The notes beneath the pieces are model-generated. The model was given only the letters and a program-made list of their open reading frames with translations. It had not been told where the DNA came from and made no database searches. The translations under genes were made by a program, and so were the position numbers. A DNA stretch of 41,339 nucleotides from an uncultured Roseobacter sp. (GTDB lineage Bacteria > Pseudomonadota > Alphaproteobacteria > Rhodobacterales > Rhodobacteraceae): contig CAJXIL010000015.1 in NCBI GenBank assembly GCA_913054455.1, positions 1 through 41,339 of the forward strand. The letters run 5' to 3'. Of the stretch, positions 1,299 through 15,883 are shown piece by piece (within the stretch, counting starts at the first letter, position 1; every line of letters begins with the position of its first letter).

Positions 1299-1440
1299 GG
1301 GGGTCGCTGCCCGCTGCGCAACCACGCCGTAATACCCATTCAATTCCAGCAACTCAGTTTCAGTGTAACCAGTGCGTTTGATGTCTCGGCAGATCGTCGA
1401 CCTGTGCCAAAACCTCCACGCGGCTCAGCGCGCGCGTTCC
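1299..1440 (-). pseudogene. Fragment of an IS30-like transposase gene
   Basis: The minus strand reads RSTICRDIKRTGYTETELL followed by ELNGYYGVVAQRAA. This resembles the N-terminal HTH region and the following ElnGYYgv.AQ segment of IS30-family transposases (usual form RSTIyREikRN). An in-frame stop lies upstream and the fragment ends abruptly against the terminal repeat of the IS3 relic at 1298, so it is a decayed piece of about 45 codons. Assignment rests on remembered family patterns. Confidence 0.5.
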
Positions 1441-1489
1441 TCATGACCCATCCCATGTCCACGCGTCCTCGCTACCTTATGCAAGGAGA

Positions 1490-1531
1490 GTGACACTTCT
1501 GCTTTGCCGTTGGGTGACATTACTGCTTTGC
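1490..1531. repeat. Tandem 18-bp repeats resembling an IS21-family terminus
   Basis: GTGACACTTCTGCTTTGC (1490-1507) and GTGACATTACTGCTTTGC (1514-1531) match at 16 of 18 positions and are spaced by 24 bp. Multiple GTGACA-type repeats of this length are typical of the ends of IS21-family elements, where they bind IstA. No istA or istB gene is adjacent. The only IS21-type gene debris in the window is the istB relic at 29846-30415. The call as an orphan IS21 end is an inference. Confidence 0.45.
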
Positions 1532-1610
1532 GGCTACACGTAAGGCACCCATAATCAGTCTTATGTTAAATTTGTTGGTTGGCAGAGCGTTTATTCCTTG
1601 AGTGCAACCA

Positions 1611-2477
1611 TTAAGATTTTTTGTCTTCAGGGCGCATCAGTGTCCTGGGGTCGATATAGTCAAAATCGTCTTTCTTCAACGTAGCCGCATCAACCGGGGC
1701 ATCCAAAGCCTCGATTGATGTTGGCTTTGGCCTGCGAAGCTGGGCAGCGGGTCGCTGCAACAGCCGTGAGCAAATTGCCGTCATCAGTTCAATTCCAGCT
1801 TCTGATGGCTTGGGAAGCGTCAGCCGCCGATCTTCGGGGTTCCGAGTCAGCTCTATCAGTCCGAGACCCTTTCTTTTGGGAGTACCTTCCGAGAGGAACG
1901 AAATATGCCTTGGGACATTGGATATGCCAATCGACGAGGAAACCTCATGCAAAGGTCGGCCTTCGAATGCAATCTCGAACTGTTTCAGGGTTACATGCAA
2001 CAAAACGCAAAAGGAGCCCAAAGACAGCCCCTGTGTCCGCGAAGTGACCTCGTTAAACGCCGGCAAAATTGATTGTTTCAAATGTTTAGCTAGCATTTCA
2101 GATCGCTTGACCCCGTCTAACGTTAGGGCTGGGTCTCTTTCCTCAGGTAACGCATAACAACATGCGATCGCTTTGCCAGTCCGCGAGGGCTTTACAAAGC
2201 TTGAGCGACGCCCCTCCGCCTTCTGCCGGACAAGTAACTTCAGGCCAAGATCAGAGCCCTTACCGTCTGCCAACTGCGCGATTTGGTGTGTAGCTTGCCC
2301 ATATTTGATTTCAGCAGAGTTGGCGACTTCGCGAAACCCCATGGGTCTAGTGGAGGCAGAGACGGTAAGCGCAGTCCGAAGTTGGGCAATGGTCAAAGTT
2401 GGCTTGAACCGGCGGACAGCAAAGCAAGCATGGCAAAAATTGGAGAATTCCGGCGACTCGAAGTCAGGAGACTGCAT
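1611..2477 (-). CDS. Putative regulator with two MarR-like winged-helix halves
   Basis: A 288-residue protein. Residues about 130-235 carry a MarR-type winged helix; the wing signature GLIELTRNPEDRRLTL and the following helix with E..I are typical of that family. Residues about 28-105 look like a second, diverged copy: LTIAQLRTALTVSASTRP, then a recognition-helix-like stretch and a basic wing (KAEGRRSSFVKPSRTGKAI). MarR proteins are normally about 150 residues and dimeric, so this would be a tandem or pseudo-dimeric form. It is divergent from the rep gene and shares an intergenic region containing direct repeats, so regulation of rep or of plasmid functions is plausible. The C-terminal 45 residues are charged and unassigned. 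The start is the first ATG; no strong ribosome-binding site was seen. Confidence 0.65.
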   Translation of the reverse strand: MQSPDFESPEFSNFCHACFAVRRFKPTLTIAQLRTALTVSASTRPMGFREVANSAEIKYGQATHQIAQLADGKGSDLGLKLLVRQKAEGRRSSFVKPSRTGKAIACCYALPEERDPALTLDGVKRSEMLAKHLKQSILPAFNEVTSRTQGLSLGSFCVLLHVTLKQFEIAFEGRPLHEVSSSIGISNVPRHISFLSEGTPKRKGLGLIELTRNPEDRRLTLPKPSEAGIELMTAICSRLLQRPAAQLRRPKPTSIEALDAPVDAATLKKDDFDYIDPRTLMRPEDKKS

Positions 2478-2825
2478 CGGGAGAAAGAAAAAAAAGAAAG
2501 CTGAATCTCCCTGTCACAATTTCCTTGGACCAACTTTAGGACGCTAGCAGGCATTTTTAACGGATGAAAGACATTTTTCTTGACTAATTTTTACGGACTA
2601 AATACATTAAAGTCAATCGACCGCAAAGGGGCAAGAAATTGCCGCGAACCGGGCTCATCGCCTCATCAAAAACGCACAACCGAACAGCAAAAACTCGACG
2701 TGAAAAAAGGAAAGAATGACAAACTTCGACTGCTTCAGGAATTTACTCGTTGAGCTCTCAGCGGACCCGAAGATGGCCTGGTTCTCCGATCTCAGGATCC
2801 GAACGGAGACACTCGCAGCCGCCAC
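2478..2825. promoter_or_regulatory. Divergent intergenic region between the MarR-like gene and rep
   Basis: AT-rich stretch of about 350 bp. A candidate sigma-70-type promoter toward rep has TTGACT (2580-2585), a 17-bp spacer and TACATT (2603-2608). It overlaps two imperfect direct repeats, 2554-2575 (TTTTTAACGGATGAAAGACATT with one extra A) and 2588-2608, which share the pattern TTTTTACGGAnnAAAnACATT. Repeats over a promoter could be operator sites for the divergent MarR-like protein or Rep-binding iterons. Neither role is shown by sequence alone. The 200 bp between 2610 and rep hold no other feature I can support. Confidence 0.4.
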
Positions 2826-4850
2826 ATGAAACATTTCCAATCTGCAAACCTTCAAGATCTAAACCAGATTGCAAGACCAGAACCTCAGCAGCAGGAGTGC
2901 CCATCGGTCTCGAACGCGCAGGCAAACTGCACGTGCCAATACCAAGCCCGCATCTGGTGCCGCCTGAAGCGCGGTTTGATCAGCTGGAAAGATCTGAGCC
3001 TCCCTGAACTTCTTTGTCTCGGAACCCAACAACCCGATCACCCGGCCCTGTCTGAAGCGAAACGCACAAAGGTCTTAGGACAATACTGGGAGCAAATCCG
3101 GACGCGTGAGGCTCACGCCCACAAGGGGTGGAAAACGGTCTATACGAACCGCTTGCCGCCTAAAAACACACTGCTCCGCGAAGAACGGCTGCCACACGTT
3201 GGTCAGTACGCTATTATCGACGAGAATAACAAAATTCAGGGACGCATAGACGCTGAGCGCTTTGTTCTCATGCAGATGGCCTACCTACCACTGGATAGAA
3301 AGGGTCGTTTCGATGTTCTAGTTGTCGACGTAGACTGCAACTTCGATCTCAACTTGTTGAAAACGGCCGGGCTGCCTATCCCGAGGTACTTCGTCTCGCG
3401 TCGGAAAGAAGCGGTCGACGCCCCGTCATTCCTGCGCAGACCCCATTTGGTTTACTGGCTTCGCACGCCGGTCAAACGAAGCATGAATGGCAAACAAACA
3501 AAAGAAGAGCTATTCTATCATGCAATCCGCAATACCCTGATCAAGCGACTTCAAGACCTTGGTTTGACTGTCGACCAGAAACTGATTGATCTCAGCAAAA
3601 ACCCCCATGCGGACAATTGGGATCATCTCCAGGGTGACTACCGTGATTGGTCACTGGGTGAACTCCGGGAGGCGATTGGCCCCCTGGAGCCTGCCAAAAA
3701 ATACTACGGGCGCACCCTTGGTAAACAGAACACCTTGGCTTCAGGGACGCAAACCAACAAATTGGCCGAATCTCTCCCTGCCCTGTCAGAAGCTCGCTTA
3801 AGCCAAGATAAGCAGCTTTTGCAGGGTTACGCTGGACGAAACGAGTTCATTTTCAATCGAACACGGCTAGCTGCTTACAGGAAGAAAACACGCAGCCCAG
3901 AGGGTTTCGATATGCGCGCCTGGATCGAAACCCGCGCACACCAACTGAACCAGGATCAGTTTGCTCAATTCAGTAAAGGACCTCTTCCACGCTCCGAGAT
4001 CAACGTGATCGTCAATTCGGTTTCCAATTTCGTCATTCATATATACGCGCCAAGCAGCGACAGCAAAGATCGGGGCGCGTGCCACCGGGCCCACTTGATC
4101 GACGCAGGCATGACTCAGAGTTTCAAACAGGGAGTGGGGGGCAGGTATGGAGCCAGGAAAAACGCTGAGAAAACACGTCAACGGGTTCTGGACGCCCTGG
4201 AAGCACTTAGCCGACACGAAGGTCAGCCCACCATTTCAGCCGTTTCAAAACAAGCAGGAATCTCCCGGCCAACAGCCCGCAAATGGATGACTCAGATTGC
4301 GGCTGAACTGATAAAAAGCACCGAGCAGACAGTGGAAAATACAGTGCATATCAGAAAGAGGCATAAAAAACATGTCTATACGCAGCGGTGGGTCAACTTG
4401 GACGGCGCATATGGCATCAGCACCTTGGGACCAATCCTTGGCTTGATAGAAGTGTTTGGTGATACGGCTGCTGTAACATCAGCTCTTGGGCCTGCGAATA
4501 TACCTTATCAACCGCTTAGAAAGAGGGGACACGCAACAGATAGTGATAAGGTATATCGGCATCCCTTTAATGCAAGGTTGGTGCTGACCCAGGAAGGCAA
4601 AGCGATTGGGATTCATAACATTGCACCTGGAATCCATTCGGTAGAGTGCGCACCCATTACAGTTCTGGACAGGGGAGGTTTCCTTGACGATCCCGCCGAC
4701 GAATACGCGCCGCCCATTGGCGAAACAGATCACGATGGATCTGTCAGATATGCAGAGGACTACTACGCCCCTACCCGGGTTGGCCTGGCGACCAAAGAGT
4801 GGACCGCTGAAGAAGTAGACAAGTACCTCGATGAGGTTCTGAGTGCATGA
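2826..4850 (+). CDS. ColE2-type plasmid replication initiator (AEP/replicase core, PriCT and HTH)
   Basis: A 674-residue replication protein. Residues about 120-285 match the pattern of ColE2-type Rep/replicase proteins with an archaeo-eukaryotic primase fold: the metal-binding DVD (168-170), then PRYFVSRRK, RPHLVYWLRTPV with a conserved His (207), and the late signature SKNPHADNW (257-265). Residues about 330-402 look like a primase C-terminal (PriCT) domain (GRNEFIFNRTRLAAYRK through PLPRSEINVIVNSV). Residues about 445-490 form a helix-turn-helix (TISAVSKQAGISRPTARKWM). Such proteins prime at their own plasmid origin. Together with mobA/mobC this implies a small replicon. The first 100 residues are unlike the family and the ATG at 2826 has no clear ribosome-binding site, so a later start is possible. 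The last 170 residues are unassigned. Confidence 0.78.
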   Translation: MKHFQSANLQDLNQIARPEPQQQECPSVSNAQANCTCQYQARIWCRLKRGLISWKDLSLPELLCLGTQQPDHPALSEAKRTKVLGQYWEQIRTREAHAHKGWKTVYTNRLPPKNTLLREERLPHVGQYAIIDENNKIQGRIDAERFVLMQMAYLPLDRKGRFDVLVVDVDCNFDLNLLKTAGLPIPRYFVSRRKEAVDAPSFLRRPHLVYWLRTPVKRSMNGKQTKEELFYHAIRNTLIKRLQDLGLTVDQKLIDLSKNPHADNWDHLQGDYRDWSLGELREAIGPLEPAKKYYGRTLGKQNTLASGTQTNKLAESLPALSEARLSQDKQLLQGYAGRNEFIFNRTRLAAYRKKTRSPEGFDMRAWIETRAHQLNQDQFAQFSKGPLPRSEINVIVNSVSNFVIHIYAPSSDSKDRGACHRAHLIDAGMTQSFKQGVGGRYGARKNAEKTRQRVLDALEALSRHEGQPTISAVSKQAGISRPTARKWMTQIAAELIKSTEQTVENTVHIRKRHKKHVYTQRWVNLDGAYGISTLGPILGLIEVFGDTAAVTSALGPANIPYQPLRKRGHATDSDKVYRHPFNARLVLTQEGKAIGIHNIAPGIHSVECAPITVLDRGGFLDDPADEYAPPIGETDHDGSVRYAEDYYAPTRVGLATKEWTAEEVDKYLDEVLSA

Positions 4851-5535
4851 CTCTTTCTGCATAGCGGCTGAACTTCTGCGGGCACCGGATCTCGTTCACT
4901 TCAAAGTGAATGCTGGGAAATGTGCCTATATTTCAGGCGAAATGAAAACACTCCCTGAAGGCTAGCAAACACCCTTTTTGGGTCAATTTCACATTTAGGA
5001 TCAAATCACTTCAAGCTGACAGAAATTGAAGTCCAGAAGGGTTCGCAAATGGCTTCTAAAGACACCTAATTACCATAAGGCCGCGCCATTTGCAAAATGC
5101 ATAACGATTTTATTTGCTTGGCAGATTCTTGCCTATTTTCACAAAACATTAACTAAAATCAGGACGCGTTATAAATAGTTTGATATTTATTTGATTATCG
5201 CAAAGGCGATTTATGGCTGGAAAATCCATTCCAACCATAAAAATAAAAATTGAGTCGAGTAGAGAATGACAGAACAATACATAAATAAATCGAACACAGG
5301 CCAGAGAGCAATACGGGCGCAGGCGCGAGCAACTGGAGTCAATACTCCTCAAGCCACGGAAATAGGGGTCAGAGCTACCTTTCATTTCTGCCTGATAGTC
5401 AGTCGGAAGAGTGCCTGACTATACCCACCAAGACCCTCAACATCCAAAACCGCACCACGCCCAGAAACCCTGGGACGGTAAGAAGAAAAGTGCGTTCAAA
5501 ATATAGATTACTTTCCAACAGAAACGGAAAACCGA
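4851..5535. other. Non-coding, dyad-rich region downstream of rep (candidate origin)
   Basis: About 685 bp with no convincing gene and marked AT richness between 5080 and 5290. It holds several inverted repeats: TTCACTT-CA-AAGTGAA (4895-4910), ACCC-T5-GGGT (4971-4983), ACTTCAA...TTGAAGT (5008-5032), and a 12-bp arm pair with one mismatch at 5211-5222/5229-5240 with a 6-nt loop. ColE2-type origins lie just downstream of rep, so position supports an origin here, but no iteron set or known origin core was recognised. The stem at 5211-5240 lacks a T run on either strand and is not a standard terminator. Confidence 0.35.
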
Positions 5536-6213
5536 ATGGCAAGAACCAAAGTCACCAGCCGCAAGATCGACGGTCAAATTGCGAAACTTCAAAATCAGAT
5601 CAATAAGCTAAGTATGAAGAGGAGCGATATCATACGGCGCATTGAACACTTGGAACAAAAATTTCAAGAATGCCCAAATGACAACCAACCCCGGGATCCA
5701 AAATTTCAAGCTGATCTAAAGTCCGCTTTGCGAAGCCGGTCTCTCCTAGACGATCAACTTGAAAATTTCCGGGAGCAACAGCGCCATCTCGAAACCTCGT
5801 TGATGAACCCTCTAGTTGAGAAACTCGACTTGGTGAATGGAAAAGCGCAAGCTCATACACTTTCGGCTTCCAATGTTGTCTTTCTTGCACGTGAGACGGA
5901 GGAACTTCTTATGAATAAGGGGGTTACACAAAAAAATATAATTGGTGCAGAGGTTTCTCTCCGGCCGGCCGGAAAGAAAGCATCAAATGCGTATGCAGCA
6001 AAAGCTAGCTCAAGCATTACGACCCGAGTGAGACTACGGCGTGTGACAGACGGTTGGCGTCTCATCGAAGCAAAGCGCGATCATTGCTATGTGAATCAGT
6101 CAGAAGCCAAAAGCGTTCACGTGCACCCAGCAGCCCATGCGGACATTCTCAGAACTGCAACGCGGGGAATACTAGTGTCTCCCCAGCCCGAGCAGGGCAC
6201 CTCAGTGAGCTAA
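5536..6213 (+). CDS. Hypothetical coiled-coil protein
   Basis: A 225-residue protein I do not recognise. Residues about 8-95 are rich in Lys, Gln, Glu and Leu with heptad-like spacing (IDGQIAKLQNQINKLSMKR, later LLDDQLENFREQQRHLETSL) and should form a coiled coil. Residues about 145-185 are basic (RPAGKKASN, TTRVRLRRVTDGWRLIEAKR) and end in a small beta-like segment. There is no signal peptide or membrane segment. It starts at ATG 5536 after a purine-rich stretch and is followed 15 bases downstream by an 11-bp perfect hairpin. It lies between rep and the FtsH-like protease gene, so it belongs to the same mobile block. A DNA-binding or scaffold role would be a guess. Confidence 0.6.
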   Translation: MARTKVTSRKIDGQIAKLQNQINKLSMKRSDIIRRIEHLEQKFQECPNDNQPRDPKFQADLKSALRSRSLLDDQLENFREQQRHLETSLMNPLVEKLDLVNGKAQAHTLSASNVVFLARETEELLMNKGVTQKNIIGAEVSLRPAGKKASNAYAAKASSSITTRVRLRRVTDGWRLIEAKRDHCYVNQSEAKSVHVHPAAHADILRTATRGILVSPQPEQGTSVS

Positions 6214-6227
6214 GCGAGAAGGCCGTT

Positions 6228-6260
6228 CCTCCCTCAATCTTCGTGGCCAATTGAGGGAGG
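6228..6260 (+). terminator. Perfect 11-bp hairpin after the coiled-coil gene
   Basis: CCTCCCTCAAT (6228-6238) pairs perfectly with ATTGAGGGAGG (6250-6260) across an 11-nt loop. It begins 15 bases after the stop at 6213 and is GC-rich at the base. No T run follows, so a classical intrinsic terminator is not proved, but position and stability favour transcript termination or 3'-end protection. Confidence 0.55.
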
Positions 6261-6308
6261 CTCAACCACCCCACCAAATTTAATTTGCACCTCACTTCAT
6301 TTAACATA

Positions 6309-6336
6309 TTGATTTAATTATATTTATTTATATAGT
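6309..6336 (+). promoter_or_regulatory. Candidate sigma-70-type promoter
   Basis: TTGATT (6309-6314), a 16-bp AT-only spacer, and TATAGT (6331-6336). It lies just upstream of a well-placed ribosome-binding site and short ORF at 6365, and upstream of the AAA+/M41 gene at 6701, so it may drive both. Confidence 0.45.
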
Positions 6337-6364
6337 TGGGTTTCAACACGAAAGGAAGCCCTCT

Positions 6365-6472
6365 ATGCTCAGTAAAATTCAGACTCAATTTCACCGGATT
6401 CATGAAATCGCAGTTGTGATCTATGTGGCAAAATTTGTGACCGAAGTCGTTGGGGGCTCATATTTTTCCTAG
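6365..6472 (+). CDS. Possible 35-residue peptide
   Basis: ATG at 6365 follows AAGGAAG (6352-6358) with a 6-nt spacer and lies 28 bp downstream of the candidate -10 box. The 35-codon frame ends at TAG 6470-6472. It encodes a basic N-terminal half (MLSKIQTQFHRIHEI) and a hydrophobic second half (AVVIYVAKFVTEVV). It is too short for homology reasoning. It could be a real small protein (membrane-active or a toxin), a leader peptide for the protease gene 230 bp downstream, or chance. From 6473 to 6700 I see no other supportable gene. Confidence 0.35.
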   Translation: MLSKIQTQFHRIHEIAVVIYVAKFVTEVVGGSYFS

Positions 6473-6700
6473 AAGCCAAAAAACATAATATTTCCAATAC
6501 TTGATACACCTTGAGCAGCCCTCTGCACTCTTTGAAACCCTTAAACCAGAAACGACAGAAATGACCTTCTCCGGATCAAAACCTGAATTCAACGCGATCA
6601 CCGCCTGGCGGCTGATATCGAAAGCCTAACCCTTCCGCCTCTGCCGCAGCAGGGCACGAAGCTTTCTCCGCATTTTCAGATTACCCCGAAAGGTTCCAAA

Positions 6701-8821
6701 ATGGTTCGCATGAGCCCCAGCCGTCCCGCTTTTACGCCCATTCTAAATGACTGGTTTCCTGACGCTCTCACGCGCTTGAACACCCTGTGGGAACTGCCAG
6801 ATTTCGACCCAGATGAAGCAGTAGATCAAGGGCCTAGTTCCGCTTGGCGCGAAATCACCGCAAACTACGATATTCCTACTGTAGCTGCCCTCATCCGGCT
6901 CTGTTCTGCCTTACCACAGTCAAATAACGCGCTCGTCAGTGAAATCTATAACCCATTCAAGATCACTGTAATCACAACGCAAGATACACGCTTGATCGAA
7001 CCAACAGTCGATGCGATCAAACGAGGTTTACTTCCTGCGATTGAAAGCAAGCACGATCACCTTCCCAAAATGAAAGTTCATTATGAGAAGACCCTTGGCG
7101 CTCGGTCAAATCCGGTCAAAAATAAGGATGACTTCAAAAAAGAGCTGTTTCAAGTACTCCAAAACCAATCTCCAGCAGTGATTGTTGTTGATACCATCAA
7201 TCAGTTACCTGCCAACATCAGGCAAGCCATTTCAAATGAAATTGTCCTTGCCCCACTGTGCCGCAAGAGCTTGTTGAAACTACACGCAGTCATTCACAAC
7301 TCTGCATCAACTGGACAGTTCGCGCGTACCTTTCAAGAATTGCCGTTTGATACCGCACTTGGACGCCTAGATCCACAGGACGTTTCTATTGCTACCCGTC
7401 ACAGAGAACCTCTAGAAATGGCTAGAGCTGTCTCTCTATTAATCGAACAAAACAACACATCAGCAAATCCTGAGGCTCTAAACCAAGTTAAAGGGCTCGG
7501 GCCTACTAGCTCTCCAATCAAACAGTTGGCTCAGGATATGCGCGCCTGGAGAGCAAATGAGCTAGAATGGTCAGAAATCCCCCGTGGCGTCTTGTTGTAC
7601 GGTCCGCCAGGCACCGGAAAAACATTCACAGCAAGTAAGCTAGCAGAAGCAGTGGGTGGATATTTCATTGCAACAAGCTACGCAGACTGGCAGCGGGAAG
7701 GCCATCTTGGGGATTTTCTAGCCGCAATGTATCGCTGTTTCCAGGAAGCACGCGACAACGCTCCGTCAGTCCTGTTCATCGACGAAATTGACAGTTTCAC
7801 TGACCGCGCAAAAGCATCAGGTGACAACGCTACATATATTCGGAGTACGGTAAACGCCCTCTTGGAGCAGCTCGACGGCACAGCAAAATCAGCGGGTGTA
7901 TTGGTGGTAGGCGCTTGCAACGACATCAGTGCCCTCGACCCGGCGCTCACAAGATCGGGCAGATTTGACCAGAAGGTATCGCTACACTTACCGGACAAAC
8001 AGGCCATTGCTGAGATTCTAAAATCTCATGTTCCGGATTCTGTATCTGTGGCAGACATCGAAAGAACAGCTGCCCATCTGGTTGGACAAAGCGGTGCAGA
8101 TGCCGCAGCCGTCGTTCGACAGGCCCAAAGCCTCTCGCGCTACCACCGCCGCTCCATCACAGGTGAAGACCTGTGGACTGCGGCACAGAAAACTACCCCA
8201 ACCGCGTCTGTTGAAGACTTAAAAAGGGCAGCGACCCATGAGGCCGGTCACGCCGTTGTTGGCTTTCTGCTCGGTAAAGGCGTTCCGCTCAACGCAGAAA
8301 TTGGGAGCACCGGAGGATTTGTACAATTTCGCCAATTGACTGCTTTTCCAACCCAGAAACAACTACAGAGAGATCTGGCAACCTTGCTAGCGGGGCGGGC
8401 GGCGGAAAGTCTATATTGCGAAGCCCCCTCAGCGGCGGCTGGCGGCGGTATGACAAGTGACCTTGCCCAGGCCACTTTGTTGGCAGCACGGCTTGAGTTT
8501 CAATTCGGGCTGGGAAGTGAAGGCCTCATCTGGCTGCACGTGACTGAAAGCTCTTTGCCTGAGCTGCTCAAAGACGTGGAAACCAGATCCCGCATGAATA
8601 AGTTCATGAAAGACGCGGAACAGACTGCAACCCGAATTTTAAAAGAGCACGGTCTTATGGTGAAATCTATCGCGGTAGATCTTCTATCAAAACGCCAGCT
8701 CACAGCTGCAGAGCTTGCAAGTCTTTTACAGACCCCTCCAGGTCCCGCTTCTCGACATCCCAAAGCAGCCGACGCACCTTCTTCTAAAGTTCCTGTTGCC
8801 TCGCTATGTCAGCCCGGTTAG
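6701..8821 (+). CDS. Soluble FtsH-like AAA+ ATPase/M41 zinc protease
   Basis: A 706-residue ATP-dependent protease. The AAA+ module has Walker A GPPGTGKT (301-308), Walker B LFIDEID (358-364), a sensor/SRH region (LDPALTRSGRFDQKV) and a lid. The M41 peptidase module has the zinc motif HEAGH (513-517) and a likely third ligand Asp in GMTSDLAQA (D587). FtsH itself is membrane-anchored, with two N-terminal helices and an F-V-G pore loop. This protein has no hydrophobic segment; its first about 250 residues are an unassigned soluble domain, and the pore-loop region reads ADWQREGHLGD. It is therefore a cytoplasmic FtsH-like enzyme, not housekeeping FtsH. ATG 6701 follows GAAAGG. It is convergent with mobA, 6 bases away, inside the rep/mob block. 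Substrates are unknown. Confidence 0.85.
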   Translation: MVRMSPSRPAFTPILNDWFPDALTRLNTLWELPDFDPDEAVDQGPSSAWREITANYDIPTVAALIRLCSALPQSNNALVSEIYNPFKITVITTQDTRLIEPTVDAIKRGLLPAIESKHDHLPKMKVHYEKTLGARSNPVKNKDDFKKELFQVLQNQSPAVIVVDTINQLPANIRQAISNEIVLAPLCRKSLLKLHAVIHNSASTGQFARTFQELPFDTALGRLDPQDVSIATRHREPLEMARAVSLLIEQNNTSANPEALNQVKGLGPTSSPIKQLAQDMRAWRANELEWSEIPRGVLLYGPPGTGKTFTASKLAEAVGGYFIATSYADWQREGHLGDFLAAMYRCFQEARDNAPSVLFIDEIDSFTDRAKASGDNATYIRSTVNALLEQLDGTAKSAGVLVVGACNDISALDPALTRSGRFDQKVSLHLPDKQAIAEILKSHVPDSVSVADIERTAAHLVGQSGADAAAVVRQAQSLSRYHRRSITGEDLWTAAQKTTPTASVEDLKRAATHEAGHAVVGFLLGKGVPLNAEIGSTGGFVQFRQLTAFPTQKQLQRDLATLLAGRAAESLYCEAPSAAAGGGMTSDLAQATLLAARLEFQFGLGSEGLIWLHVTESSLPELLKDVETRSRMNKFMKDAEQTATRILKEHGLMVKSIAVDLLSKRQLTAAELASLLQTPPGPASRHPKAADAPSSKVPVASLCQPG

Positions 8822-8827
8822 GCCGCC

Positions 8828-9526
8828 CTACAAAAATCGCGACATGTGCAGTCCATTGACGTCCTCCAAGAGCGCCATGCTCTTGGCATCCTTCCTCCGC
8901 GCCATCCAGCTTTTGGCTGGTGCGGGGGCCTTTGCCCGAAATGACAGCCAGTCTCGCGCCGACAGGCCTGCCTCGACAGACATCTGCTTCAAAGTTTGTT
9001 GAAATGGGATGAGACAGAGGCCCGGAAACTCTTCATGTAAGCCGCTATAGACCTCTTTATTGAATTGCCCTGCCCTGCTCGGATGCTCAAATCGCAACTC
9101 CAACATCCGGGAAAGTTTCTCATCACGCATACGCGTAAAACGACTGTCCATAACCCGCCCCGTTCCCATGTCATATTCCGGAAGCAGCAGGTGAAAATGA
9201 GGAATAGCCTTCACCTGACCTTCGTTCGCTTTCGCATGCTCGACAATGCAAGCTTGCCCACGTGCCAGGTGGGAAACGCCATACTCATCACAAACCGCTT
9301 TTGTGGCTGCAGCCAGGTCAGTCATCGACAGCTCCATTTCTGGGGCGATGATGACGTGGCGTACTTGAAAAACTTGACCTGTGATTTGGGCAGGTAAAGC
9401 CATCCAAGCGATGTCACTAACACCGCCATAACGCCAGCAGGCAGACTGGTTATCCCCCTCACTACTAAAGTAAGAGGTTAAAGCCTTCGTGCGCCCCCTT
9501 GAAATCCGGGAAGACTTAATGATCAT
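8828..9526 (-). CDS. mobA: MobA-like relaxase (HUH-type mobilization nuclease)
   Basis: A 232-residue protein resembling the nuclease domain of MobA/VirD2-type relaxases, which nick one strand at oriT to start conjugative transfer. The metal-binding HUH motif is seen as PHFHLLLPEYD (His110 and His112), preceded by CIVEHAK (His97) and RHVIIAPEMELS. Candidate catalytic tyrosines lie near the N-terminus (Tyr19 or Tyr33). No helicase or primase domain is fused, so this is a minimal form. Its ATG overlaps the mobC stop by 4 nt (ATGA, 9523-9526), giving translational coupling. It converges with the AAA+/M41 gene. Family assignment is good; the exact MOB type is uncertain. Confidence 0.72.
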   Translation of the reverse strand: MIIKSSRISRGRTKALTSYFSSEGDNQSACWRYGGVSDIAWMALPAQITGQVFQVRHVIIAPEMELSMTDLAAATKAVCDEYGVSHLARGQACIVEHAKANEGQVKAIPHFHLLLPEYDMGTGRVMDSRFTRMRDEKLSRMLELRFEHPSRAGQFNKEVYSGLHEEFPGLCLIPFQQTLKQMSVEAGLSARDWLSFRAKAPAPAKSWMARRKDAKSMALLEDVNGLHMSRFL

Positions 9527-9933
9527 TTATCGGCTTTCGACATCGAAGCCAAAACGCGACGAAAAAGGGCTTGTGCATCATGTAGTGTTTTTGCAATTTC
9601 TTCCGGATCCACTATAATCGCTGGAGTTTGCTTCCTCTTTTTTCTTGGAGGAGAAATCTGATCCAACCGCATTTTGATCAACTGGAGTTCCTGCAGCAAT
9701 GAAAGAGCGGCTCTATACTCGGTACTTAATGGCTTGATGACTTTTTTGCGGCGCGGACCACGAAAAACAACTTCACCTTCGTATCCAAGACGGTCAAGTA
9801 ACAACCATCTTGCAAAAGTGGTTGGCGACATGCCCCTATCCCGGGCTCGACCTTCTAAGACGCCATAAGCCGCCGTCGAGATCTTGATCCCTAGCTGACG
9901 TTTTGCAACTGAACCTACTTCTTTTGTCATCAT
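9523..9933 (-). CDS. mobC: MobC-like mobilization accessory protein
   Basis: 136 residues from ATG 9933, chosen because AAAGGAACG lies just upstream on the minus strand and the residues after it (KRQLGIKISTAAYGVLEGRA) begin the family's ribbon-helix-helix-like DNA-binding part. The middle RDRGMSPTTFARWLLLDRL fits the helix pair of MobC/NikA-type proteins that bind oriT and open it for the relaxase. A basic stretch (RGPRRKKVIKP) and a helical tail follow. A longer frame reaching 10053 exists but has no ribosome-binding site and runs through the inverted repeats, so it is rejected. It is the first gene of the mobC-mobA unit. Confidence 0.7.
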   Translation of the reverse strand: MMTKEVGSVAKRQLGIKISTAAYGVLEGRARDRGMSPTTFARWLLLDRLGYEGEVVFRGPRRKKVIKPLSTEYRAALSLLQELQLIKMRLDQISPPRKKRKQTPAIIVDPEEIAKTLHDAQALFRRVLASMSKADK

Positions 9934-9953
9934 TCGTTCCTTTGTGATTAGGC

Positions 9954-9974
9954 TACCAGCACAACTTGCTGGTA
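9954..9974. repeat. Inverted repeat upstream of mobC
   Basis: TACCAGC (9954-9960), 7-nt spacer, GCTGGTA (9968-9974), a perfect 7-bp dyad 21 bp upstream of the mobC start. Position suits a MobC autoregulatory operator or part of oriT. The function is inferred from position only. Confidence 0.5.
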
Positions 9975-10282
9975 AAAAACACTTTGGAAAAACGATGCAT
10001 GAAACAAACTTCAGCCAGGCTGAATGACCAACGGCTTGACCGTAGGAACCCATGCCGGGACGGTGAGGGGTTCAAACCTGGCTGGCAACAAGATGCAGCC
10101 ACCCATCTGAGCACGCCCAGATTTGATCGATAACATGGCGTGGCGGCGCCTTTGGTGAAGGCAACTGCATGTGCCGCAAGGTTTAGCCCTCCCATCCACG
10201 AGGAGGCTGGAGGGCCAAATCATCAAAGAATCTGCCCTCTCCCCTGTTGCCCTCAGTTTCCTATTTCGATAATGCATGAATT
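9975..10282. other. Gene-free region between mobC and the ars operon (candidate oriT and junction)
   Basis: It holds a second tight dyad, TTCAGCC-A-GGCTGAA (10010-10024), and the small palindromic motif GGTTCAAACC near 10070. Relaxase genes usually lie beside their oriT, so a nic site is expected here, but I recognise no known nic consensus. Base composition rises toward 10200, so the edge of the mobile block probably lies between about 10050 and 10250. Just before the ars start, GATAAT (10268-10273) could be a -10 box; it overlaps ATAAT-N6-ATTAT (10269-10284), a possible ArsR-type dyad. The ars start has no ribosome-binding site, so the message may be nearly leaderless. Confidence 0.35.
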
Positions 10283-11116
10283 ATGGAAGAATTGATTGCC
10301 CTCCGCCTGTCCATCCTTGGGCACCCCCAGCGCCTTGCGGTGTTTCGCCTCTTGATGCGCCGCTATCCCGATCAGGTTCCTGCCGGGGAAATCGGGGCTG
10401 CGCTGGACATAAAAGCCAGCACATTATCGTCATATCTTTCTGCTTTGATGCAGGCGGATCTGGTGAGCAAAACCCGGACTGGCACCTGGTTGCGGTATCA
10501 GATCAACATGAAAACGACTCGTGAAACACTGGACTCATTGTTTTTGGACTGCTGCCGGGGCCGTCCGGATCTCTGCAGGTCCTACCCAGACCCTGTTACG
10601 TCAGAGGAAAACCAAATGACTGACCGGAAATACAACGTACTTTTTATCTGCACCGGCAATTCGGCCCGTTCCATCTTTGCTGAGGCCATCTTGAACTCGA
10701 AAGGGCAAGACCGATTTCAAGTCTTCTCTGCGGGGACCCAACCTCAGTCCCACCTCAATCCCATTGCGATTGAGATGCTCAAGGCCAAAGGCCATGATAT
10801 CAGCGCATTGCGGTCCAAAAACGTCGCAGAATTTATCGGCGAGGGAGCCCCAGAGTTCGACTTTGTTTTCACGGTCTGTGATCAGGCCGCAAATGAGGAA
10901 TGTCCCACCTGGGATGGCCAACCAATCAGCGCCCATTGGGGCATGCCGGATCCGGTCAAGGCCACGGGCACCGAGGCCGAGAAAAGCCTCGCCTTCCAAC
11001 AGGCCTATGGGGTGCTGAACCACCGACTGCAGGGATTTGCCGCCCTTCCCATCGAACAATTGGATCGAATTTCTCTTCAAAGCGCCGTCGACGAGATCGC
11101 GCACACATCTGAGTAG
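10283..11116 (+). CDS. ArsR repressor fused to thioredoxin-type arsenate reductase ArsC
   Basis: A single 277-residue frame joins two arsenic proteins. Residues 1-105 are an ArsR/SmtB winged helix (AGEIGAALDIKASTLSSYLS is the HTH). It lacks the classical CVCDLC metal site but has Cys90, Cys91 and Cys98 (DCCRGRPDLC), an arrangement like the C-terminal As(III) sites of some other ArsR proteins. Residues 112-277 are a low-molecular-weight-phosphatase-fold ArsC with the P-loop CTGNSAR (Cys123-Arg129) and resolving-cysteine candidates Cys199 and Cys207 (TVCDQAANEECP), then HWGMPDP. It would sense arsenite and reduce arsenate with thioredoxin. An internal GAGG 8 nt before Met112 (10616) could give a free ArsC as well. 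It leads the operon with GAPDH and arsJ. Confidence 0.9.
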   Translation: MEELIALRLSILGHPQRLAVFRLLMRRYPDQVPAGEIGAALDIKASTLSSYLSALMQADLVSKTRTGTWLRYQINMKTTRETLDSLFLDCCRGRPDLCRSYPDPVTSEENQMTDRKYNVLFICTGNSARSIFAEAILNSKGQDRFQVFSAGTQPQSHLNPIAIEMLKAKGHDISALRSKNVAEFIGEGAPEFDFVFTVCDQAANEECPTWDGQPISAHWGMPDPVKATGTEAEKSLAFQQAYGVLNHRLQGFAALPIEQLDRISLQSAVDEIAHTSE

Positions 11117-11124
11117 GATAAGTC

Positions 11125-12126
11125 ATGACAACCTATGCATTGAACGGCCTTGGCCGAATGGGCAAGCTTGCGCTGAAACCACTGCTGGACAGCGGTGCTG
11201 AAATCGCTTGGATCAATGATGCAGTCGGCACACCAGAGATGCATGCGCATCTGCTGGAGTTTGACTCGGTGCATGGGCGTTGGAACGCAGAGTTCAGTCA
11301 TGACGACAAATCCATCACCATCAATGGCACCCACCTGCCCACCCATCGTGAGACGCGCCTGGAGGACCTGCCGCTTGAGGGCGTAGATGTGGTGATTGAT
11401 TGCACTGGTGTATTCAAAACGGAGGCCAAGCTGGCCCCCTATTTTGATGCAGGTGTCAAAAAAGTGGTGGTCTCGGCCCCCGTCAAGGATGGCGATGCAG
11501 CCAATATCGTTGTCGGCGTGAATGATGACATCTATCAGCCAGAGCAGCATCGTATTGTGACAGCCGCTAGTTGCACGACCAATTGTCTGGCCCCGGTGGT
11601 AAAGGTGATCCATGAAAACCTTGGCATCAAACATGGTTCAATCACCACGATCCATGACGTGACCAACACCCAGACCATCGTTGATCGGCCCGCCAAAGAT
11701 CTGCGCCGGGCGCGGTCAGCGCTTACCAATCTGATCCCGACTACCACTGGCAGCGCTACAGCTATTACGCTTATCTATCCGGAGCTTACAGGCAAGCTGA
11801 ACGGCCATGCCGTACGGGTGCCGTTGCTTAACGCCTCGATCACCGATTGTGTCTTTGAAGTTGAGCGAGAAACCAGCGCCGAAGAAGTGAATGCTCTGTT
11901 CAAAGCTGCATCTGAGACAGGTTCGCTCAAAGGAATCCTAGGCTATGAAACCCGGCCGCTGGTCTCGGCTGATTACACCAATGATCAACGTTCCAGCATT
12001 GTTGATGCGCCCTCCACCATGGTGGTGAACGGGACCCAGGTAAAGATCTATGCCTGGTATGATAACGAAATGGGCTATGCCTATCGCCTGGTGGATGTCG
12101 CTCGCATGGTTGGGGATCAGCTGTGA
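11125..12126 (+). CDS. ArsJ-associated glyceraldehyde-3-phosphate dehydrogenase
   Basis: A 333-residue type I GAPDH with the active-site [10 protein letters not shown] (Cys150) and the paired His177 ([10 protein letters not shown]), an N-terminal Rossmann fold (LNGLGRMG), and C-terminal [11 protein letters not shown]. In ars operons this enzyme uses arsenate in place of phosphate to make 1-arseno-3-phosphoglycerate, which ArsJ exports. Placement supports that role over central glycolysis: it begins 8 bases after arsR-arsC and overlaps the arsJ start by 3 bases. The missing residue in the usual NGFGRIGR motif (here NGLGRMGK) is typical of divergent paralogues. Confidence 0.9.
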
Positions 12127-13391
12127 CACAACAAGGCGGAATGGCAGCCTATATCGCGGTCACGGCCTCTTACTGGGCCTTCATGCTAACGGATGGCGCC
12201 CTGCGTATGTTGGTGCTGTTGCACTTTCACACGCTGGGGTTCTCCCCAGTGCAACTGGCCTATCTCTTTGTTTTGTATGAGATCGCCGGCATGGTGACCA
12301 ATCTTTCTGCAGGCTGGATTGCCGCGCGTTTTGGATTGACAGCAACGCTTTATGCCGGACTTTCGTTGCAGGTGGTTGCCCTGTTGTTGCTGACACAGCT
12401 GGATACCAGCTGGCAAATCAGTACCTCTGTTATCTTTGTGATGATGGTTCAGGGGTTGTCAGGAGTGGCCAAAGATCTGGCAAAGATGTCGTCAAAATCC
12501 GCAGTCAAGCTGCTGGCCCCTAACGAGGGGGACGGGTTGTTTCGCTGGGTTGCGGTTCTCACCGGTTCCAAAAACGCGGTCAAAGGCTTCGGCTTTTTGC
12601 TTGGCGCCGCCCTCCTCGCCTCAGTCGGTTTCACCTGGGCAGTCCTTGGTATGGCGTTGATCCTCGCGATTATTTTGGCAGCGGTTTTGCTGGCCATGCC
12701 CAAGGGGCTGCCAGTGGGTCGCAAGGGAGCCAAATTCTCCGAAGTGTTTTCAAAATCACGCAATGTGAACTGGCTGTCAGCGGCGCGGGTGTTTCTTTTT
12801 GGCGCCCGCGACATCTGGTTTGTGGTTGGCATTCCGGTCTATTTCTACGCGGCATTCTCGGATGGCAGCGAAGAGGGCAACCGAGCCGCGTTCTTTCTGA
12901 TTGGCAGTTTCATGGCAATTTGGACGATCTTTTACGGCGGCATTCAGGCCAGCGCGCCACGCATCCTAAAGGCTGCGACGCGCACCGAAGCCGAATTGAT
13001 TGCCGCTGCCCGAAATTGGGCCCTGCTGTTGGCGATCGTCCCTGCGGTCCTCGCCTTGGCAGTACTGCTCACAGGTGAACCGGCACTTTGGCTCACCGTA
13101 TCGCTCGTCGCCGGCTTGCTGGCCTTTGGGGCGATCTTTGCCGTCAATTCGTCACTGCACTCTTATCTGATCCTCGCCTTTACCAAGGCCGAACGGGTAA
13201 CGATGGATGTCGGGTTCTACTATATGGCCAATGCAGCTGGTCGCTTGATGGGTACTGTCCTGTCGGGGTTGACCTATCAACTGGGGGGCTTGGCCGCTTG
13301 CCTTGGCACGGCAGCTGTCATGGTGGCCCTCAGCGCCCTTGCAGCAGCTCGGTTACAGGACAAGACCGCAACAGCCCCAGCGATGTCCTGA
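12123..13391 (+). CDS. arsJ: ArsJ organoarsenical efflux permease (MFS)
   Basis: A 422-residue integral membrane protein of the major facilitator superfamily with about 11-12 hydrophobic segments. The early segment [20 protein letters not shown] and [20 protein letters not shown] are typical of the ArsJ group, which exports 1-arseno-3-phosphoglycerate made by the neighbouring GAPDH. The start is GTG 12123, overlapping the GAPDH stop (GTGA), so the two are translationally coupled. It is the last gene of the operon; a strong hairpin follows 9 bases after the stop. No arsB or acr3 arsenite pump is present in the window. Confidence 0.9.
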
Positions 13392-13400
13392 ACAGTCAGA

Positions 13401-13429
13401 CAGGTTTGGGGACTGAGTTCCCAAACCTG
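13401..13429. terminator. Bidirectional hairpin between convergent arsJ and the cyclodeaminase gene
   Basis: CAGGTTTGGG (13401-13410) pairs perfectly with CCCAAACCTG (13420-13429) across a 9-nt loop. It lies between the stops of two convergent genes (13391 and 13437), as expected for a shared terminator. No strong T run is present on either side. Confidence 0.65.
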
Positions 13430-13436
13430 GGCTGCA

Positions 13437-14396
13437 TCAATAGGAATGTGACTTCCGCCTGAGCACCTCATAGGCGGCAACCAGATCCTGAACGATCAGC
13501 CCGTGGGATTTATAAGCTGTGATCTCCGCATCCGACTGACGTCCCAGATGCGGGTCCAAAATGACCTGACCGATTTCCATCACGGCGTAATCTGCACGGA
13601 CAAGGCCCGCATGTTTGGCGCCCAGTATTTCGCCGGACTCACGACTGCTGCTTTCGCAAGAATCCGTGAACATTGACACGCGGGCAACGCCTGCATCGTC
13701 CAGCTCACGCGTGTCTGCGAGACTCGCGCCGACCAGATTGATGTGCTGACCGGCCTCTAACCATGCGCCGCGAAAGAACGCTTCTTTTGAGGCGGTGACT
13801 GTGTGAATGACATCGGCCCCCTGCACGGCCTCTGGCAGATCAGATATCGCGACAACCTGCAAAGGCTGATCGCAAAAGCGCTTCGCCAACTGCTGAGCCG
13901 CGTCAAAGCGCCGTGCCCATATGCGGATCTTGGCCTGCGGAAAGCAGGCCAAGGACCCACGGATATGCCACTCCGCCTGCTCGCCTGCGCCGCAAACTGT
14001 GATCACCCGAGGATCGGGATGCGCCAGGATCTGGGTCGCCAGCATAGACATGGCAGCGGTACGCAGCGCCGTAAGCGCATCGGCGTCACAAATCGCCAGA
14101 GGTCTACCGTTTTGGCTGTCAAACAGCATGACAAAGCCCTGATGGCTGGACAGGCCCATCGCGGGCGCGCCTGGAAACAGGCTCAACACCTTGGCACCGT
14201 GGACAGGTGGATCTTGCAGATGACCGTACATGACCCCCATGCGCCCCTGCGCATTGATCGGAGCCGCGAACCGGGGGGGATGGCCAGCGGTTTGATTTGA
14301 GACCGCTGTCATTGCAGCTTTGAGCGGGCCGAGCAGATCGGTGAGGTTGAGTGCTGCGTGAATATCGGCGGCTGAAAACATCGCAGGGCTGGTCAT
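13437..14396 (-). CDS. Ornithine cyclodeaminase/mu-crystallin family protein
   Basis: 319 residues from ATG 14396, chosen because it overlaps the dctQ stop by ATGA. NAD(P)-dependent enzymes of this family cyclise ornithine, reduce imines, or make unusual amino acids. Visible features are the substrate region (GRMGVMYGHL, then GAKVLSLFPG), the dinucleotide-binding Rossmann motif VCGAGEQAEWHI, and AVQGADVIHTVTASKEAFF. The true substrate cannot be read; membership in the TRAP transporter operon suggests it acts on the imported compound. It is the last gene of the minus-strand dctM-dctP-dctQ-ocd unit. Confidence 0.85.
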   Translation of the reverse strand: MTSPAMFSAADIHAALNLTDLLGPLKAAMTAVSNQTAGHPPRFAAPINAQGRMGVMYGHLQDPPVHGAKVLSLFPGAPAMGLSSHQGFVMLFDSQNGRPLAICDADALTALRTAAMSMLATQILAHPDPRVITVCGAGEQAEWHIRGSLACFPQAKIRIWARRFDAAQQLAKRFCDQPLQVVAISDLPEAVQGADVIHTVTASKEAFFRGAWLEAGQHINLVGASLADTRELDDAGVARVSMFTDSCESSSRESGEILGAKHAGLVRADYAVMEIGQVILDPHLGRQSDAEITAYKSHGLIVQDLVAAYEVLRRKSHSY

Positions 14397-14887
14397 GTAG
14401 CGGCCTTTTTCGTGGTCAAGAGCGCCGCAAGATGCAGCAATAATATGGAACAGCTGAGCGGGACAATCGCGCCGACCATTGCCATATTCACGCCCATCCC
14501 CTGTGACATGCGATTGCTGCTGCGCCACAGAAAACCACGCTCAAAATTCATATTCGGGCCAAAGAAGCAATAATACAGAATAGGGGACAGGAAGATTAGA
14601 ACCGTCAGGGCAAAAACCACTCTATGCCAAAGCCTTTGATCTTCAGGATTGACCTGCACAACCGTCGGGTCAAGGCGACGTTTGAAGGCACATGTAGCAC
14701 CCAGTAGCCCGGCCCAAATCATCAGATAGCGGGCCAGTTCCTCTGTCCAGCTGAACGGATAGTCAAAGCCGTAGCGCGCCCAGATCTGCAACAACACCGT
14801 CAGGGCCATGCCTACCAGGGCCACTTTCGCCAAGAGGAGGCAAGCGCGGTCAACCTGCGCGCTTGCCTGATGGAGAAAGCCGATCAC
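14393..14887 (-). CDS. dctQ: TRAP transporter small permease (DctQ family)
   Basis: A 164-residue inner-membrane protein with four predicted helices (for example VALVGMALTVLLQIWARYG and VVFALTVLIFLSPILYYCFF) and the family feature WTEELARYLMIWAGLLGATCA. It pairs with the large permease to bring in a solute delivered by the periplasmic protein, driven by a sodium gradient. It overlaps dctP upstream and the cyclodeaminase gene downstream by 4 nt each. Confidence 0.9.
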   Translation of the reverse strand: MIGFLHQASAQVDRACLLLAKVALVGMALTVLLQIWARYGFDYPFSWTEELARYLMIWAGLLGATCAFKRRLDPTVVQVNPEDQRLWHRVVFALTVLIFLSPILYYCFFGPNMNFERGFLWRSSNRMSQGMGVNMAMVGAIVPLSCSILLLHLAALLTTKKAAT

Positions 14888-15861
14888 CGCGTTTTTGCCG
14901 CCAAGGCGCGAAAGGCCTCGACTGAATCAGCCGGCATGAGACCGGCCCAGGCCTCTTCGCTACGGGCCTTCAGATCGGCCAGGGCCTCTGGCGACATGGT
15001 GGAAATAGTAACCCCTGATTTCTGCAGGCCTGCCAGCTCACCGGCAGCGGCCTTGGCGGTCCAGACACGGTTTTTAGCATTGGCCTGATCCACCGCCTGA
15101 TCCACTTTGGCCTTATCGGCGTCGTCAAGATCGCCATACCAGTCTGCAGACATCAAGGCCGAGCGGAACGGCGTGCCCGCTCCAATATCGGTATAATGTT
15201 TCAAGAACTCGGTATGGCGGAAGATCAGAGCCACCACGGGCGGGTTGTAATAGCCGTCCACGACCCCCTGCTGCACCGCGCCGGCAAATTCAGGCATATC
15301 GACCACAGCCCCCTGGACGCCCCAGTTTTTGAACAGTTCAATCTGGGTGGCATCAATCGCCCGCAGGCGCAGATCAGCCATGTCTTCGACCTTGGTCACC
15401 GGAGTTTTGGCGTTGAACACACCCATTGTGCCGCCCAAACCCGGCAGACCTGCGATCTTGACGCCCTGCCCCTCCATCGAGGCCTTGATCTCCTCCAGCA
15501 GGTCGCTTTCGGTATCCTGAGTCGCGCGGAAAAAATGTTCCATATCGTCGAACATATAGGGCGCAATAAAGCCCAAAATACGCGGATCCACTTCCTTGAT
15601 CATCACAAAGTTGGTCATGCCAAACTGTAACAGACCCTGGCTCAGCTGATCGACCACCTCTGGATCTTTGCCCAGGGCACCGCCTGCAAAGACGCTGGCC
15701 TCCAGGCCCTGTTCGCGCAGCCCCGCAGCCAGATCTTCAGCATAGACGTAGTCGGAACAGGCGTTCACTGGCGGGCAGCCAACGGCAATTTTGATCTCTT
15801 CCGCCCAAAGCGGCGCAGCGGTCAACAGCGTAGCGGCCGCAGCAAATAATGCGTGTTTCAT
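14884..15861 (-). CDS. dctP: TRAP transporter periplasmic solute-binding protein (DctP family)
   Basis: 325 residues with a signal peptide (MKHALFAAAATLLTAAPLWA, cleavage near residue 20). Family features include the early GGALGKDPEVVDQLSQGLLQ, the LRLRAIDA segment where DctP proteins usually carry the carboxylate-binding Arg, and VDGYYNPP in the C-terminal lobe. Two cysteines near the mature N-terminus (VGCPPVNACSDY) could form a disulfide and are less usual. The ligand is probably an organic or amino acid carboxylate. GGGAGA lies 6 nt before the ATG. It sits between dctM and dctQ, an uncommon gene order. Confidence 0.9.
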   Translation of the reverse strand: MKHALFAAAATLLTAAPLWAEEIKIAVGCPPVNACSDYVYAEDLAAGLREQGLEASVFAGGALGKDPEVVDQLSQGLLQFGMTNFVMIKEVDPRILGFIAPYMFDDMEHFFRATQDTESDLLEEIKASMEGQGVKIAGLPGLGGTMGVFNAKTPVTKVEDMADLRLRAIDATQIELFKNWGVQGAVVDMPEFAGAVQQGVVDGYYNPPVVALIFRHTEFLKHYTDIGAGTPFRSALMSADWYGDLDDADKAKVDQAVDQANAKNRVWTAKAAAGELAGLQKSGVTISTMSPEALADLKARSEEAWAGLMPADSVEAFRALAAKTR

Positions 15862-15883
15862 GGTGGTCTCCCTTATGTAGTCA

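Follow-up and report, generated by a model that had tools for sequence, protein, structure and literature searches.

A soluble tandem-AAA M41 protease on a likely rep/mob element of Roseobacter, and the changing nuclease-type neighbours of its family

The window – the whole stretch of DNA analysed, 41,339 nucleotides of contig CAJXIL010000015.1 from an uncultured Roseobacter sp. – carries, within an insert of about 8.9 kb, the gene of an unusual protease. M41 proteases are textbook membrane enzymes; this protein has the AAA and M41 parts of such an enzyme, no membrane anchor, and an additional N-terminal domain that is most likely a degenerate AAA+ module. Members of its family keep intact active-site motifs, recur beside nuclease-type genes and show turnover of these partners. 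Our favoured reading, to which we give a probability of roughly 0.4, is that the family serves in genetic conflict as a module of mobile elements, with the protease keeping a nuclease under control, and that the window copy derives from such a module by lacking the nuclease. The features on which the argument turns are these:

6701–8821, forward strand: soluble tandem-AAA M41 protease, 706 amino acids, assigned from Pfam, motifs, hydropathy and a structure model
Layout of the protease: residues ~46–256, putative degenerate AAA+ module; ~257–500, active AAA+ module; ~505–676, M41 zinc protease
6836–7474, forward strand: N-terminal module, most likely degenerate AAA+ from its model matches and the lack of Walker A in all 21 rows

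The first-pass annotation, made from the letters alone, had called this gene a soluble AAA+/M41 protease with all motifs and no membrane helices; the reading frame was confirmed with exactly the same limits, and the description was upheld. Pfam places AAA at residues 297–428 (E 5e-32, 111.5 bits) and Peptidase_M41 at residues 506–674 (E 4e-13, 50.2 bits), both over cutoff. Walker A (GPPGTGKT, 301–308), Walker B (FIDEID, 359–364), N407 and R418/R421 are in place, as are the M41 active-site motifs HEAGH (513–517) and D587; among 68 aligned family rows, 64 retain the lysine, the DE, and the HExxH and Asp together. Three of the four exceptional rows lack the Walker A lysine (L149, L155 and L158, loci being designated by L and genomes by G numbers), L155 and L158 starting at a contig edge; the fourth, L086, comprises the AAA portion of an enzyme divided between two genes, described below. 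The highest 19-residue Kyte–Doolittle mean is 1.29 in the window protein as against at least 2.44 in all seven outgroup proteins, and a single family row of the 68 reaches 1.9 (at position 313): the window protease is without a membrane helix. Its pore loop, WQREGHLGD, had also been singled out as different, and it is one version of a common family pattern, [W/C]Q..GH.GD, that is not found in the outgroup rows. In Roseobacter sp. MED193 the protease is 97% identical, with a ratio of non-synonymous to synonymous substitution rates (dN/dS) of ~0.30 from small numbers of changes (22 synonymous, 21 non-synonymous); identity and ratio together argue that the gene is not a chance open reading frame (ORF).

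The N-terminal domain had been thought unique, a view that did not survive: the domain is conserved within the family. A model of the full protein mainly tested the AAA part, and the domain was therefore folded alone with 21 rows, giving a predicted local distance difference test (pLDDT) score of 83.4 and a predicted template-modelling score (pTM) of 0.82. In two structure searches all 50 listed matches were entries for AAA+ machines – proteasome, Bcs1, TRIP13, NSF, ORC and clamp loaders among them – the lists naming, for large complexes, the entry and not the subunit. Single matches are weak: the best Foldseek E is 4e-4, three matches reach E 0.001, listed query-normalised TM-scores span 0.28–0.48, and the best Z, 8.0, is at a level the tool calls common. 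It is the uniformity of the lists, together with coverage of nearly the whole domain, that argues for AAA+. In the full-protein model one p97 chain aligns over residues 51–540 (root mean square deviation 12.2), as two consecutive AAA modules would, and a Walker A motif is absent from all 21 N-terminal domains checked. The domain is most likely a degenerate and inactive AAA+ module, and the protein would then be a cytosolic tandem-AAA M41 protease. A new fold was considered for the domain and rejected, the model matching AAA+ machine entries throughout.

The reach of the family was examined in several samples. From a scan of genomes of bacteria and archaea 79 loci were retained, among them L002–L029, which are alphaproteobacterial by label and have no membrane segments. 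As whole proteins 46 of the 79 score at least 340 bits: L002–L029, 16 proteins of membrane type (Omnitrophota/Elusimicrobiota-like, hydropathy at least 2.48, three of them used as outgroup) and two archaeal proteins matched over the AAA part alone. A 23-row family profile, run over 394 genomes of the window's taxonomic family with two candidates scored per genome, gave 42 matches of at least 341 bits in 35 genomes, the next match standing at 324 bits or less – a gap valid only within this sample. Forty of the 42 were taken as stretches, and since L119 duplicates L003 there remain 39 loci (L120–L158), a sample that excludes the window itself and G396:C3 (two internal stops). One more copy, G216:C21, was found later beyond the two candidates per genome, a limit by which further copies are missed. 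When sampling was extended to the phylum, matches at 1e-98 came from 15 of 378 genomes, every one of the same class as the window; the match in one of the 15, G503 (337 bits, AAA–M41 part), may be an ordinary FtsH. As far as they have been placed, members are all alphaproteobacterial or from viral contigs, which is no proof of confinement to the Alphaproteobacteria because the number of the 378 genomes outside the class is not shown. Ten of 80 loci returned from putatively viral contigs have proteins above 360 bits without a membrane segment. Phage records gave 123 matches, but in no case did coverage of the protease reach 80%. Within the genus, three of 12 genomes match at 1e-40: the window's own, the MED193 record (G004) and G003. 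The G003 match (L083) contains a membrane segment; it was used as outgroup and groups with the other outgroup rows.

A tree of the AAA–M41 part (68 family and seven outgroup rows, eight incomplete or split rows excluded), built by a quick method with SH-aLRT support only, places the family in a single clade, with 100% support, separate from the outgroup; within it the window protein groups with those of MED193, Shimia (L003) and G251 (L120) at 99% support. The kinship with FtsH and other M41 AAA proteases is plain – an AAA module and an M41 zinc protease, alike in motifs and in order – but the window protein differs in having no membrane helices, in its probable extra module and in its pore loop, and it falls far short of the NCBIfam FtsH equivalog TIGR01241 (180.2 bits against a cutoff of 600). 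That the gene is a duplicate of canonical FtsH was rejected, on the gap of 341 versus 324 bits in the 394 genomes and on the separate clade. The same evidence bears on the idea of an accessory quality-control protease for stress tolerance, akin to horizontally acquired membrane FtsH copies, for which there is precedent: in the available part of one report a xenologous FtsH on a Pseudomonas aeruginosa clone C island is described as important for fitness (PMC6629908). The missing anchor, extra degenerate module, different pore loop and fully supported separate clade nonetheless speak against such a role here, as do the sporadic presence (35 of 394 genomes) and the recurring partner genes, and we consider it distinctly improbable.

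Some family genes are damaged or divided. Frameshifts break the protease gene near Walker A in L153 and L156 and further on in L029 and L076, and in L177 it lies in pieces; all five were treated as decayed. On plasmids of A. vaccinii (L086) and NT-25 (L188) the AAA and M41 parts occupy two neighbouring, overlapping genes, which looks like a real two-gene form, a split FtsH-like enzyme. Several of the loci L031, L033 and L052–L077 encode Omnitrophota/Elusimicrobiota-like proteins of 750–1900 amino acids with membrane segments, for which the family profile gives scores as high as 985 bits; these may carry extra AAA modules.

Evidence for partners of the protease came from clustering its neighbours, which revealed two frequent gene types, A2 and A3, directly 5′ of it. 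A2 proteins (zinc-ribbon/GIY-YIG-like, ~330 amino acids) contain several pairs of the CxxC type, and their C-terminal domain shows traits of GIY-YIG enzymes; Pfam finds T5orf172 weakly in eight of 17 members and MUG113 in four (best E 0.011), two families of the GIY-YIG group. A3 (~190 amino acids) is a PD-(D/E)XK protein: its best evidence from structures is a match to the putative endonuclease of PDB 2ost (E 0.0017), Pfam PDDEXK_5 appears in one of the two members that were scanned (E 2e-5, just under cutoff), and two public records label it 'group I intron-associated PD-(D/E)XK endonuclease'. Among the 39 loci of the window's taxonomic family A2 stands directly 5′ in 22 and A3 in six (28 of 39), always on the same strand. 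In two of the 39 (L155, L158) the contig begins with the locus, leaving no upstream sequence, and in L153 and L156 the upstream distance was taken to the second half of the broken gene. All 85 loci reduce to 77 clusters at 80% identity, of which 21 have A2 and 15 have A3 (36 of 77), three being without room for either. A further apparent gene, common upstream on the other strand (cluster 9, alignment A4), proved to be A2 read in antisense and was dropped.

The A2 and A3 profiles were built from upstream genes, and for this reason the reverse test was run. A2 was found at 33 places in the 394 genomes. At 22 it precedes a family gene (broken in two of them); fragments of the protease N-terminus follow at L167 and, less clearly, at L172, and a fragmented protease gene at L177; an AAA protein without M41 follows at L168, L169 and L171 (Pfam on L171 only); at L170, L174 and L175 the contig ends; and L173 and L176 are followed by neither. 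Seven of eight A3 places adjoin a protease gene. The eighth, a weak match at L178:4941–6471, overlaps a gene that by eye is DNA cytosine methyltransferase-like, which suggests that nuclease and methyltransferase form a restriction-modification pair. In L168 and L169 a gene weakly resembling the degenerate N-terminal module lies between A2 and the M41-less AAA protein.

Partners also change. On the tree the A2 labels need 11 changes, at least seven of them forced by supported branches, and the A3 labels six, at least five of them forced; the label 'none' here includes loci cut by contig ends, and a change may be a gain, a loss or an exchange. Close relatives joined by a 100% branch, L011 with A2 and L133/L137 with A3, have different partners. 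As inferred from this tree, the labels require that partners were repeatedly gained, lost or exchanged. Some of the clusters lacking both A2 and A3 have a different nuclease-type gene upstream, and these further candidate partners are varied. Pfam finds GIY-YIG in upstream genes of L029 (over cutoff) and L025 (under cutoff) and weak CoiA-type matches upstream in L127 and L128; calcineurin-type phosphoesterase genes lie upstream in L024 and L028 and downstream in L088, and a metallophosphoesterase gene is directly upstream in six of the ten viral-contig members. The assignments upstream of L157 (GIY-YIG) and L016 (nuclease-like) were made by eye alone. A gene of 201–214 amino acids upstream in L016, L191 and L196 begins alike in all three, again by eye, and the clade of L015, L019 and L087 has, instead of an upstream partner, a downstream gene without a Pfam match. 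In some loci, for example in Azospirillum, no nuclease-type partner was recognised. Close to the protease gene of L087 (Thioclava plasmid p5) lie nucleotidyltransferase and SAVED-domain genes, a pairing associated with CBASS. A scan of neighbour ORFs with PADLOC and Pfam (110 of 123 selected, antisense ORFs kept in) listed 25 families, including CRISPR, Lmu, other defence genes and integrases; no enrichment is claimed.

How might such a module work? The protease could be a hexamer with two stacked AAA rings above a chamber formed by the zinc proteases. Substrate recognition would fall to the inactive ring, helped by adaptors, of which the coiled-coil protein encoded beside the window gene would be one; the active ring would pull it in and the M41 ring would degrade it. 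In two-gene modules the protease would determine how much of the partner nuclease is present or how active it is, degradation being the simplest means; an invader, or loss of the element, would upset the balance, and the pair would act as an anti-phage, anti-plasmid or addiction module. The window copy – putatively a nuclease-less derivative that keeps its coiled-coil partner and travels with a rep/mob element – would most likely act on a partner of its own element or on a foreign or resident nuclease; relaxase, Rep and a foreign nuclease are candidate targets. More tentatively, we suggest a new class of mobile-element conflict system: a tandem-AAA M41 protease of the cytosol, equipped with an adaptor, would gate nucleases that can replace one another (zinc-ribbon GIY-YIG-like, PD-(D/E)XK, metallophosphoesterase and CoiA-like), and nuclease-less derivatives, the window copy among them, would let small rep/mob elements control or survive those nucleases.

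Parallels to known systems exist at several points. The anti-phage system IetAS comprises an AAA ATPase and a protease. It too ties an AAA-type motor to proteolysis in a defence setting, and the PADLOC model of IetA matches the AAA part of the window protein at 78 bits; yet the NCBIfam anti-phage model NF042959, also at 78 bits, does not reach its cutoff of 510, and here the M41 protease is in the same chain. No subtilisin-type IetS partner was seen beside the window gene, and among annotated loci an S8 peptidase lies ~8 kb off in L084. In SocAB-type toxin-antitoxin systems a toxin is kept down by proteolysis, by the host ClpXP; the logic is that proposed here, with the difference that the protease would be encoded in the module itself. 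McrBC, in the available part of its description, pairs an AAA+ GTPase with an endonuclease (PMC6624300), likewise a two-gene pairing of motor and nuclease, whereas the motor here is of Cdc48/FtsH type with a protease domain and would be expected to pull proteins. Closest in module order are the predicted FtsH ternary (MoxR–vWA) conflict systems, which in the available portion of the account have two FtsH-type AAA modules, the first inactive without a P-loop and the second active, together with proteins of the MoxR and vWA types; the hosts reported are deltaproteobacteria, actinobacteria and planctomycetes (Kaur et al. 2020, PMC7159879). The inactive-then-active order is that of the window protease, but that portion mentions no M41, and ours are M41 proteins with nuclease-type partners in Alphaproteobacteria; MoxR and vWA were not among the neighbour clusters listed, the neighbours not having been searched individually with MoxR or vWA models. 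No description of the family was recognised in the literature covered (few subscription papers, no preprints), nor in the available parts of PMC10924106, PMC10293859 and PMC9020784.

If the favoured reading is true, a soluble double-AAA branch of M41 proteases, carried by plasmids and viral contigs and linked to nuclease-type genes that change, would represent a hitherto unseen design for genetic conflict, and would give a function to alphaproteobacterial plasmid genes now labelled 'AAA family ATPase' and 'hypothetical protein'. The pairing of protease and nuclease is testable: there are two genes, clear active-site mutants and many natural partner swaps.

Several observations weigh against this reading. 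The A2 profile matched no GIY-YIG structure and the call draws on weak matches; Pfam matched nothing in the upstream genes of L016 and L157 or in the downstream genes of L015, L019 and L087. Neither A2 nor A3 lies within 300 bases in 38 of the 77 clusters, a count that includes L153 and L156, where A2 precedes the broken gene. Because A2 also stands beside M41-less AAA proteins, degradation may not be the essential step. Among 17 listed loci of the phylum-wide sample, three are preceded by A2 and a single one by A3 (L204, which is the L129 site again); these four are in the window's family, and no locus of another family has either. In these data A2 and A3 are a feature of Rhodobacterales, the partner elsewhere being different where recognised, and this confinement slightly lowers our confidence in a conflict module. 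The clade of the window, MED193, Shimia and G251 has neither A2 nor A3, and the nuclease logic is therefore not directly applicable to the window copy. Finally, none of the counted mobility clusters was found in 18 of the 39 loci. With a weak A2 call, partners within one order, a window copy devoid of them and a function that we infer, restraint as to significance is in order.

The mobility genes deserve attention in their own right. A neighbourhood survey, proposed at the outset, found homologues tied to recurring neighbours, often mobility genes, and not scattered without such links; members lie on plasmids, in viral contigs and in regions that hold genes for recombinases. In 14 loci (among L129–L142, L155 and others) the protease is followed downstream by a cluster of serine recombinases, large serine recombinases by Pfam on two members, which suggests integrative elements. 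These recombinases, and the resemblance of A3 to an intron-type PD-(D/E)XK endonuclease, would suit a selfish homing or insertion module, with homing-type nucleases aiding entry of the element into DNA and the protease clearing the recombination complex. Metallophosphoesterase partners do not fit such a module, however, the 18 loci devoid of counted mobility clusters tell against it, and homing should need no dedicated AAA+ protease; we think it improbable.

As the first-pass annotation had proposed, the window protease sits on an element of likely rep/mob type, and here the neighbours are of a different kind:

1393–10261, strand not assigned: approximate inserted element, shared with MED193 from 1393, genus-shared sequence starting at 10261/10262
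1611–2477, reverse strand: putative regulator P0006 (PHROG transcriptional regulator, E 1e-5; no Pfam match)
2826–4850, forward strand: replication initiator-like P0003 (PF03090, E 1e-4, and PriCT_1, both just under cutoffs)
5536–6213, forward strand: coiled-coil partner P0002, 225 amino acids, C-terminal part strongly conserved
6365–6472, forward strand: ORF of a 35-residue peptide, with a Shimia relative at 51%
8828–9526, reverse strand: relaxase-like P0004 (MobA/VirD2-type; PF03432, E 0.013, under cutoff), convergent with the protease gene
9523–10053, reverse strand: MobC-like P0005, 5′ of the relaxase-like gene, its name inferred from position

Convergent relaxase-like and MobC-like genes next to the protease gene or near it are common to window and MED193, Shimia (L003) and G251 (L120), the relatives of P0005 in L003 and L120 being 30% identical over 93 amino acids. 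This arrangement would suit control of transfer or copy number: the protease of the window clade would degrade the element's relaxase or Rep and so time mobilisation or replication. An annotated relaxase gene within 3 kb in three of six Sulfitobacter loci points the same way. Across the 39 loci, in contrast, the commonest neighbour is a nuclease-type gene, and 13 have a serine or tyrosine recombinase cluster without any relaxase cluster. We regard control of transfer as unlikely, if credible, and prefer the conflict module.

The first-pass annotation had suspected two upstream partners, of which one stood. The coiled-coil gene P0002 is rare, occurring in one of the 394 genomes (the window's own) and in MED193, and was not found in L003 or L120. 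Its relatives occur in six of 72,556 plasmid records, all Sulfitobacter and every one within 2.3 kb of a family member. In five it directly adjoins the protease gene, in convergent orientation; in the sixth, where the match is weaker and no gene is annotated, it lies 2.2 kb off behind an insertion sequence. In all six A3 lies upstream of the protease. P0002 has a dN/dS of 0.10 against MED193, again from small numbers (six synonymous, two non-synonymous changes), and its C-terminal half, although strongly conserved, matches no solved structure by sequence search (best E 0.45). Judged by these associations P0002 is a real partner of the protease.

The 35-residue peptide fared otherwise. A full-length relative (51%) lies upstream of the Shimia protease gene (L003:8774–8881), and a match was found in three of eight genomes searched; none was found in plasmids. 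Weaker relatives (E 0.001–0.002) lie away from any protease, at G000:C105:7356–7433 in the window's own genome and at G010:C1:1489387–1489461, and the peptide is on this account not a dedicated partner. Roseobacter genomes hold a family of partly hydrophobic peptides of exactly 35 residues at several unrelated sites. The initial hunch was thus largely right, failing in the novelty of the N-terminal domain and the exclusivity of the peptide.

A protease with no A2 or A3 beside it, accompanied in the window by the coiled-coil gene, could also be an orphan that protects its small element by destroying a resident nuclease system, and the family members in viral contigs are in keeping with such anti-defence. 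But no target is known, and six of the ten viral-contig copies have a phosphoesterase partner and so are not orphans; the probability that we attach to this explanation is very small.

The limits of the insert were drawn by comparison. The window matches a stretch of MED193 at 95% from 1393 to 18812, and five other genomes of the genus (L159–L163) match from 10261/10262, by eye just before an ArsR-like gene; a sixth (L164) matches from 10262, in pieces. With the MED193 match starting at 1393, the insert measures ~8.9 kb and holds genes resembling those of a regulator, a replication initiator, a relaxase and MobC beside the coiled-coil and protease genes. Since the Rep and relaxase matches are under cutoffs, its rep/mob nature is likely rather than proven. 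No plasmid relative of the Rep-like P0003 was found, the relaxase-like protein has two distant ones, and a DNA search of plasmids with 5500–6720 found nothing. No convincing terminal repeats were found at the element edges (one 9-bp match is near chance), and the left edge is disturbed by what we read as transposase remnants. Rfam gave no RNA family at gathering scores in 4851–10300, and RNA folds of two peptide regions were no better than shuffles. Synonymous divergence from MED193 across 1393–11113 is 0.005–0.14 in the element genes, 0.054 in the neighbouring ArsR-like gene and 0.40 in the GAPDH-like gene that follows, as if the stretch had been recently exchanged.

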